From NCBI RefSeq assembly GCF_017874375.1, contig NZ_JAGGLK010000002.1:310001-374000 (forward strand): a DNA stretch of 64,000 nucleotides, read 5' to 3'. The position numbers and the translations under genes were made by a program. The notes under the pieces were generated by a model. It saw only the letters and a list, made by a program, of their open reading frames with translations, ran no database searches and had not been told where the DNA came from. Shown here piece by piece: positions 8,222 through 33,745 of the stretch (positions are counted from its first letter, which is position 1; each line of letters starts with the position of its first letter). Origin of the DNA: Methanohalophilus levihalophilus. Lineage in GTDB: Archaea; Halobacteriota; Methanosarcinia; Methanosarcinales; Methanosarcinaceae.

Positions 8222-9250
8222 TTAGTAGGTCCAGTTCTTTGTTTCTTCAATCATTGCCTGAAGGTTGACTGTTGGGGTCTGGCTTACAGTTCCACAGCCT
8301 GGGCCGAGGAGAGCAACGCCAGCTTCCAGAACTTTCTTTGATTCTTCCCTGATTGCAGCAACATTCTCTTCACCGGAGTTCCAGAGCATGCTTACAGGGT
8401 CGAGGTTACCAACGATAAGTGCTTTCTCAACGTTTGCTACAGCTGCTGCCATATCGACATTCTGGTCAACACTGATTGCATCGACACCACAGGTTTCCAT
8501 GAGGGAAAGACCAGGGGTTGTGTCACCACAGATGTGGAGTACGGATGGTACACCCTTCTCGTGGAGTGCGTCAATAAGCTTTGCGTGGAAAGGTACGACA
8601 AATTTCTTGTAGAAATCTGCACCGATAAGTGAGTAACTTGCGGTTGGGTCAATGATTACGAAGGTGTCTGCGCCGTTCTCGACCTGTGCAAGTGCGTATT
8701 TGATGCTGAATTCGGTTGTGAAGTCCATGACAGCCAGACCGAATTCCTCGTCGGTCATGATGCTCATGAACCAGGAGTCCCCGGTGAGGTGCTGTGCGAG
8801 GGAGAAAGGACCGATCATACTGCCAATGATTGGAAGTTCTTCTCCATATTTGTCAGCGAGGATCTTGACTGCTTTGAGAACTTCTCCGATCCTGCCGGTT
8901 GTTACATCGTAGTCCTTGTGGCTTTCAAGGTCATCTGCGCTGTTGATAACGTGGCTGATAACGGATGGCTGTTGTACTCTTGTACTTGGCTTGATGCCAC
9001 AGCCGAAGAATTCTGCTTCAGCAGTGATGTCGAAAGGAACACGTACTGCTTCCCAACCTACAACTGTGTGACCTGCTTCTGCAAGTTTTGCCATAAGTTC
9101 TGGGTCTTCGTGTGCTTCTGGCCATGCTGCACCACATGCATCCATCTGCTCGACTGTACCTGTCTGTGTGACACAGATTGCAGGCATCCTGTCAACTTCT
9201 TCACGTGCAAATACGCGTGCTAATCTCTCTTTTGGTGTGTATTCAACCAT
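8222..9250 (-). CDS. mtbA: Methylcobamide:CoM methyltransferase, methylamine type
   Basis: The 342-residue enzyme of the UroD/MtaA/MtbA fold transfers the methyl group from methylated corrinoid protein to coenzyme M. The zinc ligands are seen as LHICGDTT and, about 75 residues later, GPGCGTV. The start is [10 protein letters not shown] at 9250, preceded by GGAG; an in-frame upstream start at 9328 lies in the promoter. It has its own TATA box, 119 bases after pylD. Family similarity alone does not separate MtbA (methylamines) from MtaA (methanol); the neighbouring pyrrolysine cassette favours MtbA. Confidence 0.85.
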
Positions 9251-9310
9251 AACCTTAAACTCCTTTAGTATAAGTTCAATTCTAAAAGGTATTCTGGCTA
9301 TGCATTTAGC

Positions 9311-9321
9311 ATATATATACC
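9311..9321 (-). promoter_or_regulatory. TATA box of mtbA
   Basis: On the minus strand the run GTATATATAT is preceded by purines (AAAAG, a BRE-like context). A start site about 26 bases downstream, near 9290, would give a 5' leader of about 40 bases that includes the GGAG ribosome-binding site. Confidence 0.6.
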
Positions 9322-9368
9322 TTTTCATATTGAAAATGCATAACCGGCACCGTCTTCCAATGCCGTTA

Positions 9369-10148
9369 TCAGAGAACTGAATAGAGCATTGCAGCTACCC
9401 CTATAACCAGGGGTTCCATTACAAGATCAACGTGATCCCGGCTTCCAATATCCTCTGGAAGCCCACAGGGAATACCCGGGGTGGATACAAGACACCTTTC
9501 TGCAACCATTCCTTCAGAAATTGTATTTGGATTTGGTGTTGCTTCAAGAACCATTGAGAATTTTTTCGTACCATTGCAGTTGTACGGTATTACCCCAAGT
9601 TCTTCCTTCGCTTTTTCCATGATTTTCCTGTCCGGATCGCATGCATAGACTGTGAATCCCTTGTTTACCAGATGCTCGGCTCCTGCATATCCAACCCTTC
9701 CCATGCCGATTACAAGTATTTCTTTTGAGTCTGCGTGGAGGTATTGCGAGGCAATTTCCGCATAAACCACTCCTGTGCAAACGTGGTTTGTGGCAATCTT
9801 CCCGTTGCGAAGGTTGTGGGCAATGAAAATATGATCATCAGCCATGAGAATTATGTCGGCATTTCCCTTGATTGCTTCATGGTATCCGGTAATGTCCGCA
9901 TGTTCGGTGATGAATCCATCCATTCCAAAGTATTCAGTAATAGCCAGCAATGATGCTGAAAAAGTGCTAATAATCCCGTTTCCAGCTGTAATTGGTATGA
10001 TTCCAACTCTCTCATTCCCGGGATTTGTTCCGTAAATAGCATGGCAGATTTCCGCAATATCCATGCCAGTATCCTTCCTGATGATATCATTGTTGTGGTT
10101 GAGTTTATCCAGAAGATCTTCAAGATCCTCCGGTGTAAGTAATGCCAT
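9369..10148 (-). CDS. pylD: Pyrrolysine biosynthesis protein PylD (dehydrogenase)
   Basis: The 259-residue protein has the PylD family's usual length and a Rossmann NAD-binding motif ([15 protein letters not shown]) after an N-terminal domain. PylD oxidises L-lysine-N6-3-methyl-D-ornithine to a semialdehyde that cyclises to pyrrolysine. The start is [10 protein letters not shown] at 10148, chosen for its GGAGG Shine-Dalgarno; an upstream in-frame start at 10193 would overlap pylC. It is the last gene of pylTSBCD and has the strongest ribosome-binding site of the cassette. Confidence 0.95.
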
Positions 10149-10161
10149 GTCTTTTCCTCCT

Positions 10162-11241
10162 TTACTTTTCCATGTCTTTCCTGATGATCTCAATAGCTTT
10201 GTTGTGATTATTTTCGACTTTGTCTGGAGACTCGCCTGTGCAAATCAAAGTGTAAATAGTGTATTTGCCGGTTGACTTGAAGATCTCAATTTCTTCATCC
10301 TCAAAAAGGCGGAAGTAGTCCTCACCTTCCGAAAACAAATGTTCCCCTGTGGGTGTCAGGTTACCGTCGTCAATCATCAGATGTTCGTAAACGCAATGTT
10401 TGAGAGTTTGAGGTTTAACGTCAGGGACTTCTTTGCAGAATGCGTCCATCAGCCAGGTAAGCAGGTTAATGCCACTGCTGTGGTAGACAACTGTTGGTGT
10501 CTGGCTGGGGAATCTCGCATCAATTTCAATTACCCTGATGCCTGATTGTGAAGCGATTGCTTCCACATCCATTATGCCTTTCAGGTTCAGGTTTTTGGCA
10601 AGCTGGTAGCTGATTTCCCTGAAATTCCCATCAGTCTCCATCGGGGTTACTTTGTGGCAGTCATATACATCATCAATGTGTACCTGTGTCTGCTGGCCGA
10701 CTGCATAATCCTGCCCGTTTCCCACGACTTCAAGGGAAATTACCGGGCCGGTTACATATTCCTCAACTAGCATGTCTGGATCAATCTCTGCCAGCTCTTC
10801 TTCGGTTTCAACGATCCTTGCTCCAATGCTGCTACTCATGCAAGGAGGTTTTACAAAATATGGGGGTTTCGAAGGTTTGTCAAAGGGTGTTGGTACATCT
10901 ATGGATGAGAAATATTCCTTTGATCGTTTTTTGTCCATGCTGACGTGATATGCATCAAAATCAAAAAGCAAGGGGCAGTGAAGTTCTGAAGCAATTTTTT
11001 TCAGGAAAAGGATGCTATCGAGGTTCTCGTTCGTGGGAATAATTGCAGAAAATTCCCGGGAAAGGTCAACGAGTTTCTCAGGTTGCTTTGTTATATCAAA
11101 ACAGAATGTCTGGTCTACGACGTTACGTATCAATGCTCTGGGATTTTTGTCCACCAGGACAACTTCCATCCCGGCTTTGTGAGCAAGATAGGCTACTTCG
11201 AAGCCTTGCAACTTGCCCCCTATCAGGCATATTGTATTCAT
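10162..11241 (-). CDS. pylC: 3-methylornithine--L-lysine ligase PylC
   Basis: The 359-residue ATP-grasp ligase couples 3-methyl-D-ornithine to the epsilon-amino group of lysine. An N-terminal Rossmann-like part (CLIGGKLQGFEVAYLAHKAG) precedes the ATP-grasp core (PYFVKPPCMSSSIGARIV, MLVEEYVTGPVISLEV, VIEIDARFPSQTPTVV). The ATG at 11241 lies one base after the amber stop of pylB. No Shine-Dalgarno-like sequence is visible upstream (the region is the end of pylB, reading GATGAGTCGGTAGA), so translation probably depends on ribosomes finishing pylB. Confidence 0.95.
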   Translation of the reverse strand: MNTICLIGGKLQGFEVAYLAHKAGMEVVLVDKNPRALIRNVVDQTFCFDITKQPEKLVDLSREFSAIIPTNENLDSILFLKKIASELHCPLLFDFDAYHVSMDKKRSKEYFSSIDVPTPFDKPSKPPYFVKPPCMSSSIGARIVETEEELAEIDPDMLVEEYVTGPVISLEVVGNGQDYAVGQQTQVHIDDVYDCHKVTPMETDGNFREISYQLAKNLNLKGIMDVEAIASQSGIRVIEIDARFPSQTPTVVYHSSGINLLTWLMDAFCKEVPDVKPQTLKHCVYEHLMIDDGNLTPTGEHLFSEGEDYFRLFEDEEIEIFKSTGKYTIYTLICTGESPDKVENNHNKAIEIIRKDMEK

Positions 11242-11242
11242 T

Positions 11243-12298
11243 CTACCGACTCATCAGTATCATGTTGAAATCTTCCTGTTTCGCAGGCTCCATTCCCATG
11301 GATTCAAGTCTTTTAACAACGCTGTGGGCGTCCCTGTCTCTCTCGGCCAAATCCCTGTCGTAGTTAACAACACCCTCAAGGGATGATCCTGAGGGTATGA
11401 TAGAAGTAACAACGTTTGCTCCGGCATTGAGGCGGTGAACCATTCCATCGATTCCTTCCAGATCAAGCGATGCGGGAATCAGACGGTCCGGGAACATAAG
11501 TCTTAAAATGGCTATAATCTTCAGTTCGGATTTGCTCGAGCCCGGAACTTTTTCCTCAAGGGGTGTCCCTTCCTGCGGTACAAAAGTCATTACCCTGACC
11601 ATGTCCGGATTAGTGTTCTCCAAACCTCTTAGGGATTTGAATGTGGATTCGTTGTCAGGTTCAACTTCTGTCAGGATGCCGTCCTCAATACACATTCCGG
11701 TTTTCCGGGCATGATTTCGGCAATCAATACGTTTTTTATAGGATTGACCAACCCTGAGTTTAGCGTAAAGTTCAGGGTCATAGGTTTCCTGATACAGGGC
11801 AAGGAAATCCGCGCCATTCTCCCTCAATTCTTCAAGCACATCATTCTCAACAACTCCCGGGGAAACCATTATCGGAAGGCCGACTATTTCTTTTACCCTT
11901 CTGACGGCTTCAACGAGCCTTTCAGGATGGTTGTGGTAGTAAGGGTCTTCTCCCATGGTAAGGTCAACCATGTGGATAGGATCATCCTTGAGTGCTTCGC
12001 ACACCTTTTCTATTTCATCTGGCGTGAGGCGATATCTATCAATATCGTTTTTGCAATTATAGTAGCAGAATGCGCAATTGTTTTTGCAGTAAGTGGAAAA
12101 ATAGACAAAACTGTACAGGAAAACCTTGTTCCCAAAATTATGATCCCTTATTGCTCTTGCAACGGAATAGAGTTTCTCGAGGTTTTCATCATCTTCAATA
12201 TTAAGGAGGTTGCGCAGGTTGTCATCTGACAGCTTTTGCCCGTTTATGATGGATTCTGCAAAGTTGTCAAGTTCTTCCCGGCTCATATCCTTTAACAT
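11243..12298 (-). CDS. pylB: 3-methylornithine synthase PylB (radical SAM), amber stop codon
   Basis: This 351-residue radical SAM mutase converts lysine to 3-methyl-D-ornithine. The cluster motif is CKNNCAFC (CxxxCxxC, about residues 71-78) and later parts match the family (TMGEDPYYHN, TFVPQEGTPLEE, LDLEGIDGMVHRL). Its stop codon is TAG (11245-11243), the only TAG terminus among 69 complete genes here. If decoded as pyrrolysine, the frame continues 39 more codons to TAA at 11125-11123, inside pylC in another frame. A GAGGT ribosome-binding site precedes its ATG. Confidence 0.95.
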   Translation of the reverse strand: MLKDMSREELDNFAESIINGQKLSDDNLRNLLNIEDDENLEKLYSVARAIRDHNFGNKVFLYSFVYFSTYCKNNCAFCYYNCKNDIDRYRLTPDEIEKVCEALKDDPIHMVDLTMGEDPYYHNHPERLVEAVRRVKEIVGLPIMVSPGVVENDVLEELRENGADFLALYQETYDPELYAKLRVGQSYKKRIDCRNHARKTGMCIEDGILTEVEPDNESTFKSLRGLENTNPDMVRVMTFVPQEGTPLEEKVPGSSKSELKIIAILRLMFPDRLIPASLDLEGIDGMVHRLNAGANVVTSIIPSGSSLEGVVNYDRDLAERDRDAHSVVKRLESMGMEPAKQEDFNMILMSR

Positions 12299-12302
12299 TT
12301 TA

Positions 12303-13544
<1,242 letters not shown>

Positions 13545-13620
13545 CTATAGGTGGCAAGTTTTCCAGCTACAAGTTTCCGGGTGTCTATTTCTGTGTCATT
13601 TTCAGACCGTCTCAATTTTC

Positions 13621-13692
13621 TGGCGGAAACCCCGGGAATCTAACCCGGCTGAATGGATCTAGAGTCCATTTGATCTACCTGATCAGGTCTCC
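13621..13692 (-). tRNA. pylT: tRNA-Pyl(CUA), amber suppressor, CCA encoded
   Basis: A 72-base gene with all known tRNA-Pyl peculiarities: a single base between acceptor and D stems, a 5-base D loop, a 6-bp anticodon stem (AATGGA/TCCATT), a 3-base variable loop (CAG), a T loop without TTCG (TTAGATT) and discriminator G before an encoded CCA. The anticodon CTA is at 13662-13660. The acceptor stem GGAGACC pairs with GGTTTCC, giving one G-U wobble at the fourth pair. It heads the pylTSBCD cluster. Confidence 0.98.
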
Positions 13693-13721
13693 ACTTGACC
13701 TGTGGTCTATCTTGAAAGACC

Positions 13722-13728
13722 TATTTAA
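13722..13728 (-). promoter_or_regulatory. Probable TATA box of pylT
   Basis: On the minus strand TTAAATA lies about 30 bases before the tRNA 5' end, the distance expected for an archaeal promoter starting transcription near 13698. It may drive the whole pylTSBCD unit, since no strong TATA element is evident between pylT and pylS. Confidence 0.5.
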
Positions 13729-13870
13729 CATTATGGGTTTTGAATTGTCAGATCGATTAGATCAAAATACATAATCTATATTAATCATAAGGAGATCAAC
13801 TAAAAGTTACTTTAACAACGATCAACTCTGGTTTAAAACAAGGGCCAATAAAACGAATAAGGATTTGCTT

Positions 13871-15346
13871 ATGCTCCCTCTTAAAGAAAATATACTTGCT
13901 CTTACCCCTCCGTCACACGGTGGACTCATACGCCACGCTTCCCAGTTATACTCAATTCCTGAAGATGAAATCCTGGACATGAGCGCGAGTCTCAATCCTT
14001 TAGGTACTCCCTTTGATCACGCTGAGTATGGTATGGATCTTGATTCCATTCTCGCAGCAGCATTTGAAAGAATAGGGCAGTACCCTGATAACCGCTACAT
14101 TGAATTCAGGGAAGCTGCTGCAGAATTTGTAGGCAATGGTGTCACAAAGGATTGCATTATCCCTGGAAATGGGTCAACTGAAATCATAAGATTGGTTGCA
14201 GAATGCATTCTTGGACCGGAAGATTCTGTTATTATTCCACAGCCCACGTTTGCGGAATATGGGCAGCAATGCAGTATTACCGGGGCAAAAGTGCTCTCTT
14301 ATCCAGTTGATGATATTCTTAACATTCCCGATGAAATGCTTGCCGAAGCTAAGATTATCTTCGTCTGTAATCCTAACAATCCCACCGGGAAACTGATTCC
14401 TTCTGAAAAGATACTTGAGCTTGCTTCCAGATGCGAGGCAAATGAAACTCTTCTATACGTCGATGAAGCCTTTATTGAGCTGTCTGATATTTCACAAACG
14501 GTTGTAGGGGAAGTGCCAAAATCAAATTATCTTTTTGTGATGCGTTCCCTTACCAAGTGTTTTGCAATTCCCGGCATTCGCATGGGTTTCGGGGTTGCTT
14601 CAAAGGAAATGGCGGATTTACTCAACGCTGCACGATTGTCCTGGAATATGGGAGCTGTGGCAGAAGAAATGAGTTGTGCTCTTCTGAGGATGGAGGGAGG
14701 CCTTAAAAGTCCTTATCTCATGCGTTCAAGGGCATTTGTGGATATGGCCCGCACCTATCTTGCAGACCGGCTTTCGGATATTTACGGTTTTATTCCACTT
14801 CCCAGTGAAGTGAATTATGTGCTTGTGAACATTTCCAACCTTCTCATGGATTCCACAGAATTGAGTACAAGGTTAGCTTCACACGGTGTTCTCATACGCG
14901 ATTGCAGTTCATTCCCCACGATGGAAAAAGATTATATCCGTATAGCAGTGAGGCCACCTGAGGAAACCGACAGACTGGTTTATGCGATAGGGGAAGTGTT
15001 AACCGAATCCGGTATAGATTATGGTGCCGAACAACTCCGGGAGAATATCCAGTCCGCTGTATCCGGGAAAAAAGCTGCAAGAAACACCTGCGATTATTAT
15101 CCATGTCATTTCCACGGGCAGGATTGTACATTCTGCTTCTGTCCGTTCTATCCCTGTGAGAACACAAAAACCGGGGGTAAATGGATTGAAAGCACTACAG
15201 GTAGCGAAGTCTGGAGTTGTGAAGGTTGCACTATTATACACAAACCGGAATTATCCCAGCAAATGCTCGAGATATTAATGGATGACGGCGGTTCGGAAGA
15301 AAGCCTGAAGAAAGCATGGGACGAAATTATTGTTCCAATCCTCTGA
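13871..15346 (+). CDS. cobD: CobD: threonine-phosphate decarboxylase with C-terminal Cys-rich domain, PLP site intact
   Basis: The 491-residue protein is a fold-type I PLP enzyme (about 1-385) fused to a Cys-rich small domain (about 400-460: [27 protein letters not shown]). PLP residues are present: GNGSTEII, PTFAEY, NPNNPTGK, the Asp of LYVDEAF (codon 198) and the Schiff-base Lys of RSLTKCFA (codon 229). A homologue from Methanosarcina mazei is reported to have both L-threonine kinase and phosphothreonine decarboxylase activity, supplying aminopropanol phosphate for cobamides. It stands alone beside the pyl cassette; a paralogue at 34636 heads the cobamide operon. The start is the ATG at 13871, after AAGGA. 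Confidence 0.88.
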   Translation: MLPLKENILALTPPSHGGLIRHASQLYSIPEDEILDMSASLNPLGTPFDHAEYGMDLDSILAAAFERIGQYPDNRYIEFREAAAEFVGNGVTKDCIIPGNGSTEIIRLVAECILGPEDSVIIPQPTFAEYGQQCSITGAKVLSYPVDDILNIPDEMLAEAKIIFVCNPNNPTGKLIPSEKILELASRCEANETLLYVDEAFIELSDISQTVVGEVPKSNYLFVMRSLTKCFAIPGIRMGFGVASKEMADLLNAARLSWNMGAVAEEMSCALLRMEGGLKSPYLMRSRAFVDMARTYLADRLSDIYGFIPLPSEVNYVLVNISNLLMDSTELSTRLASHGVLIRDCSSFPTMEKDYIRIAVRPPEETDRLVYAIGEVLTESGIDYGAEQLRENIQSAVSGKKAARNTCDYYPCHFHGQDCTFCFCPFYPCENTKTGGKWIESTTGSEVWSCEGCTIIHKPELSQQMLEILMDDGGSEESLKKAWDEIIVPIL

Positions 15347-31906: not shown

Positions 31907-33745
31907 ATGGCCAGTCCCTTTGTGGTTCATGATCCTGTTCACAAGACAATAGTAATCACGCCCCTGCAACAGGGATTGCTCGAGACTCCTCATCTCCAGA
32001 GGCTCAGGGGAATCCAGCAATTGGGGCTTGCAGATGTCGTCTATCCCGGGGCAAACCATACCCGTTTTGAGCATAGTCTGGGTACGATGCATACAGCATC
32101 CCTTTTTGCAAATGTGCTTGCTCTTCCTCCGGATGAAAAAGTAATGGTGGAAATTGCCGGTCTTCTCCATGACGTTGGGCATTCCGCCTTCTCACATGCT
32201 GTTGAGGGGGTTTTACAGCGCAATCCGGCTTTCCAGCCCGAACTGCAGGGGACGCAAATGGGCAGGCATGAGGCATTCACTTCCCATATAATCAAAAACA
32301 TACTTCCCGAAATTGGTGAAATTTCAAGACTTGTGAAATAGGAAATAGGGGCAGATCCACACGCATTTTTTGCAGCAATCTCAAAAATAGCTGTAGGCCA
32401 GACTGAAGGTCTCGATAAACCATATCTTGCACAACTAATCTCTGGGGATATTGATGCAGACCGAATTGATTTTCTTCTGCGTGATTCTTATCATACGGGT
32501 ATTTCCCTGGGGTTGATTGATCTTGATCAGATTTTGCAGAGTCTTAGCATCAAAGATGGCAATATTGTGCTTGGTTTTGGTGACGGATGTAGTTATGACG
32601 AGGATATGGCTTTAACTGCTGCAGAATCAATGCTCATTGCCCGCTCTCATCACTATAATGCTATTATTCATCATCCTCATCTCCAGTCCGCACGGACAAT
32701 GCTTTTGCGCTGTCTTGAGAATGCCCTTCAGAATATGGCTAAGGCAGAAGGGGATGACAATGTAATCTCCAGTATAGAGGAGTTTTTTATTTCCTACAGG
32801 GATGCGGATCTTCTAGCCTTTGTTCGGAAATGGGGGGATGCAAAATCTTCCAAACTCATTGATTCACTCCTTGAAGGGAATGTTTACGAACCCGTTTTCC
32901 GGTTTAACCAGAAAACCCTGTCCCCGTCTACAAGAATGACGCTTTCTACAATTGCAAGGCATGGTGTTGCCTGCAAAATGTTTGAAACCGAATTGGAAAA
33001 ACGTCTTGGTGATGTATTTGTAAACCTGGATGTTGCATCAGGAGTTCCCAAAACCACCCGAGTCTTTGTGGGTGAGGGGGATAGTTTCTTTTATGATGAA
33101 TCCGCACTCGCAGGTGGACTTGTCAGGGCCATTTCCCGACAACTTTCTCTTACAGCTTTTGCTCACAGGGATGTGGCCACTTGCAGGGATGGTGAGGAAG
33201 CCCGGATGATGATGAAAGATACTGTCGATGAATTATCTCCGCGTTTGCTTGGTTTCATAAGGCAGGGCCAATATCTTCCCATCGAAGGAATAATGCTTCT
33301 CTTCTACGCAGTTCACAGCCTGTTCGAGGAAAAAGGAAAGGATTTTGTTTCTATTCCCCGGATAAGAAACATCACCTGGCTTTACAAAACTGTTCGGAAT
33401 TTTGGACAGCATGAAAAATTGAAGTACCTTTTTGACTACAAATTCCATGAAAAGTATGGTTTTCCCTATAGCTATCGGGTTTACGAAGATATACAGGTGC
33501 TTGTTGCTATGGGAATTGTGGATGAAGATCTTCGTTACTACGAAAAGGCAGGTCGTTATCACCAACGCTATGAATATGTGCTTACCGAGCACGGGGTGAC
33601 CTATGGAAAAAATCTTGTAGGGCCTTATCAATATGAATTCAGAGAGATTATTAATATGTTGAAAATGGAAAAACATTCGATACCAAGGGATATTGTAACA
33701 CTGCCCCTCAAGAGATATTTACGCGAAACCGGACTGGAGCCTTGA
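31907..33745 (+). CDS. HD-domain phosphohydrolase (SAMHD1/dGTPase-like) with in-frame amber codon, probably pyrrolysine
   Basis: One frame of 613 codons, interrupted only by TAG at 32339-32341 (codon 145). The N-terminal part has RFEHSLGTMH (His56), LLHDVGHSAFSHA (His88-Asp89) and a leaderless start. After the TAG, homology continues without loss: ADPHAFFAAISKIAVGQTEG, then GDIDADRIDFLLRDSYHTG, the block holding the last Asp ligand of SAMHD1-type enzymes. No ATG, GTG or TTG occurs in frame between the TAG and 32513, so restart would lose that block. With pylTS in the same window, decoding as pyrrolysine is the simplest reading. The C-terminal 350 residues have no clear domain. The stop overlaps the trmI start. 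Confidence 0.85.
32339..32341 (+). other. In-frame TAG, candidate pyrrolysine codon
   Basis: The codon follows CTT GTG AAA and precedes GAA ATA GGG in the HD phosphohydrolase frame. It sits in a loop between the HD helices and the next conserved block, where an unusual residue might be tolerated. No obvious strong hairpin follows it. Confidence 0.75.

Follow-up and report, generated by a model that had tools for sequence, protein, structure and literature searches.

The sensing of a translation component through a decoding event at a stop codon of its own gene is known from bacteria, where release factor RF2 autoregulates prfB by way of a frameshift at such a codon. The pyrrolysine (Pyl) cassette of archaea may hold an arrangement of this kind, with the difference that pylB would sense a suppressor tRNA charged with the product of the pathway, and would do so via readthrough. 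The codon concerned was already pointed out by Rother and Krzycki (2010; PMC2933860), who noted that pylB is closed by TAG in M. mazei, M. acetivorans and M. burtonii and presented this as a case of codon ambiguity, and the accessible part of their article does not mention the tie of this TAG to a pylC start one base downstream, its conservation, its recurrence in another order or any regulatory role. In this line, termination-reinitiation at tight or overlapping gene pairs was shown in archaea by work with Haloferax (Huber et al. 2019, PMC6728339). As presented in the excerpted text, those pairs resemble pylB-pylC in that the downstream start lies at or beside the upstream stop, but they are overlaps (ATGA, TGATG) and their stop is not decoded by any tRNA of the cell. 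Control over the reading of UAG itself is described in excerpts of PMC8211752 for Acetohalobium arabaticum, where UAG means Pyl only on trimethylamine; in that likeness to the pylB TAG, however, control comes via growth conditions and not via a codon within the cassette. According to the same excerpts, no cis-element is known that Pyl decoding would require, and how a UAG is read is thought to depend on the amount of charged tRNA-Pyl relative to release factor. No proposal of regulation at the pylB-pylC junction was found in the open-licence literature, to which the search was mostly confined. What is new here is the tie of the TAG to the pylC start one base on, its conservation when compared with controls, its reappearance in a different order and, in the clade of the organism under study, a readthrough frame that stays open.

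The pyl cassette and its pylB-pylC junction

The window, i.e., the whole stretch of 64,000 nucleotides of Methanohalophilus levihalophilus DNA analysed here, contains a complete pylTSBCD pyrrolysine cassette, with tRNA-Pyl, PylS, PylB, PylC and PylD together and profile scores above the cut-off. Its parts, and one more gene of the window to which we return below, are the following (window coordinates):

9369..10148, minus strand: pylD, the next gene of the cluster (TIGR03911, 352.5 bits)
10162..11241, minus strand: pylC, with its ATG at 11241 (TIGR03909, 470.3 bits)
11123..11242, minus strand: putative readthrough extension of PylB, 39 codons (11242-11126) plus TAA (11125-11123), from translation
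11242, minus strand: single spacer base between the pylB TAG and the pylC ATG, from the sequence
11243..11245, minus strand: amber codon TAG at the end of pylB, the proposed branch point (from the sequence; TAG at 49 of 51 one-base junctions)
11243..12298, minus strand: pylB, methylornithine synthase, short (terminated) form of 351 aa (TIGR03910, 544.1 bits)
12303..13529, minus strand: pylS, pyrrolysyl-tRNA synthetase, with a TAA stop (NF007083, 700.9 bits; ORF)
13621..13692, minus strand: pylT, tRNA-Pyl with a CUA anticodon (ARAGORN)
31907..33745, plus strand: HD-domain gene with an in-frame TAG at 32339-32341 (Pfam HD; sequence)

The junction is built as the first-pass annotation had described it: pylB ends in TAG (11245-11243), a single base (11242) follows, pylC begins with the ATG at 11241, and translation past the TAG stays open for 39 codons up to the TAA at 11125-11123, overlapping pylC in another frame. 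A pylC start within a few bases of the pylB stop, the spacing expected of coupled genes, is found in the window and at 51 of 94 loci, there too as exactly one base, the identity of which varies among relatives. The same annotation regarded the TAG as the only amber stop of the window, and this needs some qualification: three ORFs in a greedy list of those of at least 60 aa end in TAG, pylB among them, the second being an ORF of 81 aa with no Pfam match and the third the first part of the HD-domain gene, whose TAG is read through. No tandem repeats were found at positions 9000-14000 of the window.

We propose that selection maintains the TAG of pylB as a branch point for the ribosomes that reach the start of pylC. 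When the release factor wins at the UAG, PylB of natural length would be made and the ribosome, left beside the pylC start, could restart there, giving coupled synthesis of PylC. When Pyl-tRNA(Pyl) wins, Pyl would be inserted and the ribosome would cross the pylC start out of frame, to end 14-42 codons inside pylC and leave a PylB extended by Pyl and a short unstructured tail. Which of the two wins would follow from the relative amounts of release factor and charged tRNA-Pyl, so that more charged tRNA(Pyl) would mean less coupled PylC, a negative feedback on the supply of pyrrolysine. From sequence comparison we put the probability of this reading, in which a branch point at the start of pylC responds to Pyl-tRNA and feeds back on PylC, at roughly 0.47; the dependence of pylC on termination at the TAG, the drop in PylC by readthrough and the selection for both are what we infer. 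If true, the UAG before pylC would be a built-in gauge, with translation of pylC hinging on UAG being read as a stop. This bears on the balance of charged tRNA in cells that read UAG as pyrrolysine, and the native pylB-pylC junction could cap the yield of Pyl for users of pyl cassettes.

Some described data fit into this scheme. Excerpts of PMC2933860 report that decoding of an introduced UAG reaches 20-30% in M. acetivorans, and that the pylB of this species works in E. coli when ended by TAA. Since the solved structure 3t7v, which PylB of the window matches over residues 1-348, has just 350 residues, and since the TAA version is functional, the short PylB is sufficient.

Conservation of the amber codon

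Of 111 Methanosarcinaceae genomes, 98 have a pylB match, and DNA of up to 20 kb was taken around 94 pyl loci, the other four (G067, G087, G093 and G116) being excluded for a partial or split pylB. The stop of pylB over these 94 loci is TAG in 51, TGA in 33 and TAA in 10. Of the 51 genomes where pylC starts exactly one base after it, 49 use TAG and 2 use TAA, and where pylB and pylC overlap as ATGA the stop is TGA. One-base junctions occur in Methanohalophilus (g1), Methanococcoides (g3), Methanosarcina (g8) and the genera labelled g2, g7, g11 and g13; Methanolobus (g5) has TGA overlaps, with TAG at the end of pylB in 1 of its 26 loci. The comparison across relatives, which had been set beforehand as a test of the proposed switch, came out in its favour, as stops at one-base junctions are not a random choice of TAA, TGA and TAG: the codon and the spacing are conserved together in seven genera of the family and in a second archaeal order (see below).

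Such a pattern could also arise from ordinary termination-reinitiation, in which slow or weak termination at TAG would favour a restart at the next base and pyrrolysine would be irrelevant. Archaea often couple genes at tight junctions according to the accessible portion of PMC6728339, and in seven genomes of the second order a TAG stands before pylC where it is not clearly the stop of the upstream gene. The explanation nevertheless looks decidedly unlikely when set against the remaining same-strand gene pairs with one-base spacing in the Methanosarcinaceae DNA examined, which end in TAG once, in TAA 23 times and in TGA 25 times (1/49, a control that leaves out one further TAG, the window's own pylB), and against the pylC starts of the family without a one-base stop, only 3 of 43 of which have TAG at -4 to -2. 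Fisher's test for TAG at pylB-pylC versus other one-base pairs gives a P of ~1e-24, a value overstated because the genomes are related. The same 3/43 also led us to reject TAG as a plain nucleotide motif before pylC.

Chance plus inheritance, by which an ancestral TAG was simply never replaced, is in our view very improbable. The genera concerned are related, and some other stops are conserved as well (TAA in 35 of the 35 members of one neighbourhood ortholog family). Against this, stop changes counted on a tree of PylB, PylC and PylD for the same 51 one-base genomes amount to 2 in pylB but 10 in pylS, 6 in pylC and 11 in pylD (Poisson P = 0.006 for two or fewer pylB changes with 9 expected), and the junction is found again in a second order, with a PylB that is ~45% identical. 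Among 41 neighbourhood ortholog families, no other non-methyltransferase gene keeps TAG across several genera as pylB does, the nearest being one family with 8/15 and one antisense-looking ORF, also with 8/15; the greedy ORF picker used for this count retained 57 of the 94 pylB genes, the rest probably being masked by upstream-extended pylC frames. Since the TAG genera occupy two separate parts of the family tree, taken with no root inferred, the one-base TAG arrangement is probably ancestral in the Methanosarcinaceae and lost in g6 and the TGA group, as far as these sequences indicate.

The second order is that of genome G188, in which pylB is present in 91 of 147 genomes. Its PylS matches cover only residues 137-407 of the query, as would be expected of Methanomassiliicoccales, the PylS of which lacks the N-terminal domain. 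In 250 genomes of another class, to which one related locus pointed, pylB was present in 34, and the 30 loci that were read include 10 one-base junctions, all 10 with TAG. Across the order of G188, the pattern of a stop, one base and a pylC start carries TAG in 24 genomes and one of the other stops, TAA or TGA, in 4. An in-frame TAG ending an adjacent pylB is given by coordinates in 16 genomes, or 17 with G306, which was added from the 30 read loci, versus two with TAA and one with TGA. The total for this order is 17/20 over the 147 genomes, with the frame taken from coordinates where the locus was not fetched and without G155, where the TAG is out of frame with a pylB that stops at TGA. In seven genomes (G262, G211, G400, G144, G401, G405 and G444) TAG precedes pylC by one base, yet pylC follows pylS, the distance from the PylS match to the TAG being 43-114 nt. 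As this TAG is in frame with PylS in only two of the seven, it is not clearly the stop of the upstream gene there; it may end a short leader ORF, be a relic of pylB, or have a role besides ending the upstream gene. These seven TAGs are the main loose end of the branch-point reading.

Altogether, the type of stop is conserved in 49 of 51 one-base genomes of the Methanosarcinaceae and 17 of 20 in the second order, as regulatory readthrough would demand. The placement of the codon of pyrrolysine one base before pylC is kept far beyond chance, selection on the pylB TAG is well supported, and this conserved placement suggests that pyrrolysine is sensed by the cell through the codon which this amino acid itself decodes. 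Counted against the branch point are the TAA of two of the 51 genomes, the TAA or TGA of three of the 20, and Methanolobus and others, which lack the device. M. barkeri also has TAA at the end of pylB (excerpts of PMC2933860), which together with the TGA overlaps of Methanolobus indicates that the device is dispensable.

Sense TAG codons and the readthrough frame of PylB

In 344 kb sampled from the genome of the window, amber-ended ORFs are few, 9 among the 284 with 120 aa or more, in contrast with the 49 of 51 one-base pylB-pylC junctions; with the window included, TAG ends 14 of 371 ORFs of at least 100 aa. One of the 14 is pylB, seven have no Pfam match and six look like parts of longer genes, namely the HD gene of the window, a kinase (two ORFs), an MttB methyltransferase, a lipocalin-like ORF and a DUF11 ORF. 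The last runs for a further 48 codons past its TAG, with the domain in the upstream part only. In the HD gene (31907-33745) the frame continues for 467 codons past the TAG at 32339-32341, and its Pfam HD domain spans this codon, which is thus a sense codon. TAG lies inside conserved domains of unrelated genes in the HD gene, the kinase, the MttB gene and the lipocalin-like ORF, and the tandem GAF copies of the kinase carry, as judged by eye, Q and H at two of the TAG positions. The organism of the window probably reads UAG as Pyl broadly. In this it would resemble 'Ca. Methanomethylophilus alvus', for which excerpts of PMC4153887 give 1.6% TAG stops and 16 extra Pyl proteins. Sense TAG is shown for the genome of the window alone; TAG ends 1 of 107 ORFs in a Methanococcoides sample and 7 of 123 sampled ORFs in Methanosarcina. 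An archaeal code with all TAGs as pyrrolysine, the 'Pyl code', was reportedly described in a paper of 2025.

Two of these genes deserve a mention of their own. The HD-domain (phosphohydrolase-like) gene, with its TAG inside the HD domain, is a candidate pyrrolysine protein outside the methyltransferases. The kinase (L187:355-3087, minus strand) is a histidine kinase of 911 residues with PAS-PAS-GAF-GAF-HisKA-HATPase architecture and three in-frame TAGs.

For pylB, these data mean that the supposition of the first-pass annotation that part of the ribosomes read through is probably an understatement here, TAG acting as a sense codon in this genome. PylB of the window species probably often carries Pyl and a 39-residue tail and, as long as there is Pyl, may normally be made in this extended form. 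From here it is a short step to consider the TAG as a plain sense codon, with a PylB made longer by Pyl and 39-42 residues, and a pylC that starts alone and free of regulation. The length of the readthrough frame lends something to this notion. It has 39 codons in 8/8 Methanohalophilus, 42 in 11/11 Methanococcoides and in g13, and 14, 20 or 23 in Methanosarcina, and the 20 genomes of g1, g3 and g13 have no TAA or TGA in it over the 39 shared codons, whereas none of 1187 same-phase start points elsewhere in pylB, pylC, pylS and pylD reaches 39 open codons (the longest, 29). Moreover, in these three genera the codon columns of the extension that a T would turn into a stop avoid this base in 8/8 cases versus 98/388 elsewhere (P 2e-5), or 6/6 versus 68/339 when only variable columns are taken (P 8e-5); these tests of openness over 39 codons were set up after the closing point of the frame had been seen, and with the closing column included the count is 8/9 (P 2.7e-4). 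A weak excess of T avoidance also exists in Methanolobus, mostly without TAG there (4/9, P 0.017), and a mild one at the start of pylS (4/7, P 0.03), so part of the signal may be an effect of gene starts. The plain sense codon is further contradicted by Methanosarcina, where TAG is equally conserved, 7 of 123 sampled ORFs end in TAG and the frame closes after 14-23 codons (the shared open run is of 14 codons, matched by 7% of start points), and by the fact that little but the length of the tail is kept. We rate it as unlikely.

Regarding the tail itself, among 11 sequences only two columns besides Pyl are invariant, and the extension is predicted to be disordered (pLDDT <50), beginning directly behind the final helix predicted for the fold (341-350). 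Synonymous variability over the first 39 codons of pylC, compared in g1, g3, g8, g5, g14 and two rows of g11, is low in g1 and g3, and equally low at the starts of pylS and pylB. A functional C-terminal peptide was rejected on these grounds, with lengths of 39, 42, 20, 14 and 23, the two invariant columns, a pLDDT <50 and no special constraint. As the tail is poorly conserved and predicted disordered, its openness rather than its sequence seems to be kept, and only in g1, g3 and g13, the clade that includes the sense-TAG genome of the window.

The tail could instead be the point of the device if feedback acted on PylB and not on PylC: a Pyl-containing tail would destabilise or inhibit PylB, and abundant Pyl-tRNA would lower the first enzyme of the pathway. 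Its predicted disorder directly after the last helix agrees with this, and every TAG-bearing lineage would make some tail. However, the length and sequence of the tail differ strongly between genera, and the tie of the TAG to a pylC start one base on is left unexplained, which makes this option quite improbable. Returning to the branch point that feeds back on PylC, a wider form of it, by which the codon is a sensor common to two orders, and PylB of Methanohalophilus and Methanococcoides is usually a Pyl protein whose short form restarts pylC when Pyl is scarce, is put forward tentatively, the odds being somewhat against it.

Initiation of pylC and RNA around the junction

The first-pass annotation also held that pylC has no Shine-Dalgarno. 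This stands for the window species, where anti-SD pairing at the pylC start (-3.2 kcal/mol) equals the random median (-3.2), and likewise for its nearest relative, G002, but not for the other six Methanohalophilus (-7.5 kcal/mol) or for most TAG-bearing relatives (medians of -8.1 kcal/mol in Methanococcoides and -8.4 in Methanosarcina). Since a Shine-Dalgarno precedes pylC in most relatives that carry the TAG, the lack of one does not belong to a conserved design; where present, it makes uncoupled initiation possible, which counts against the branch point. In Methanosarcina, the start codon of pylC directly behind the stop is TTG or CTG in 18 of 23 cases (loci such as L092, L102 and L130). Starts of this kind beside a stop suit a pylC that depends on reinitiation, as would be expected under the branch-point reading.

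A TTG or CTG start is unusual in a biosynthetic gene. Regarding the RNA, no conserved element was found around the junction, which also counts against the branch point, and the consensus fold changes from genus to genus. Averaged within each genus, folding z-scores range from -1.6 to +1.1 for the region from -40 to +40 and from -2.2 to +0.4 downstream, the lowest of all, -2.15, coming from two genomes of g7.

Some loci present other versions of the junction. In L136 (G020), which belongs to g14, otherwise a genus with TGA overlaps, TAG lies ten bases before pylC, apparently due to an indel near the end of pylB. In L080 (G121), a pylB homologue with one internal TAA, which may be a pseudogene or a sequencing error, overlaps pylC as TAATG.
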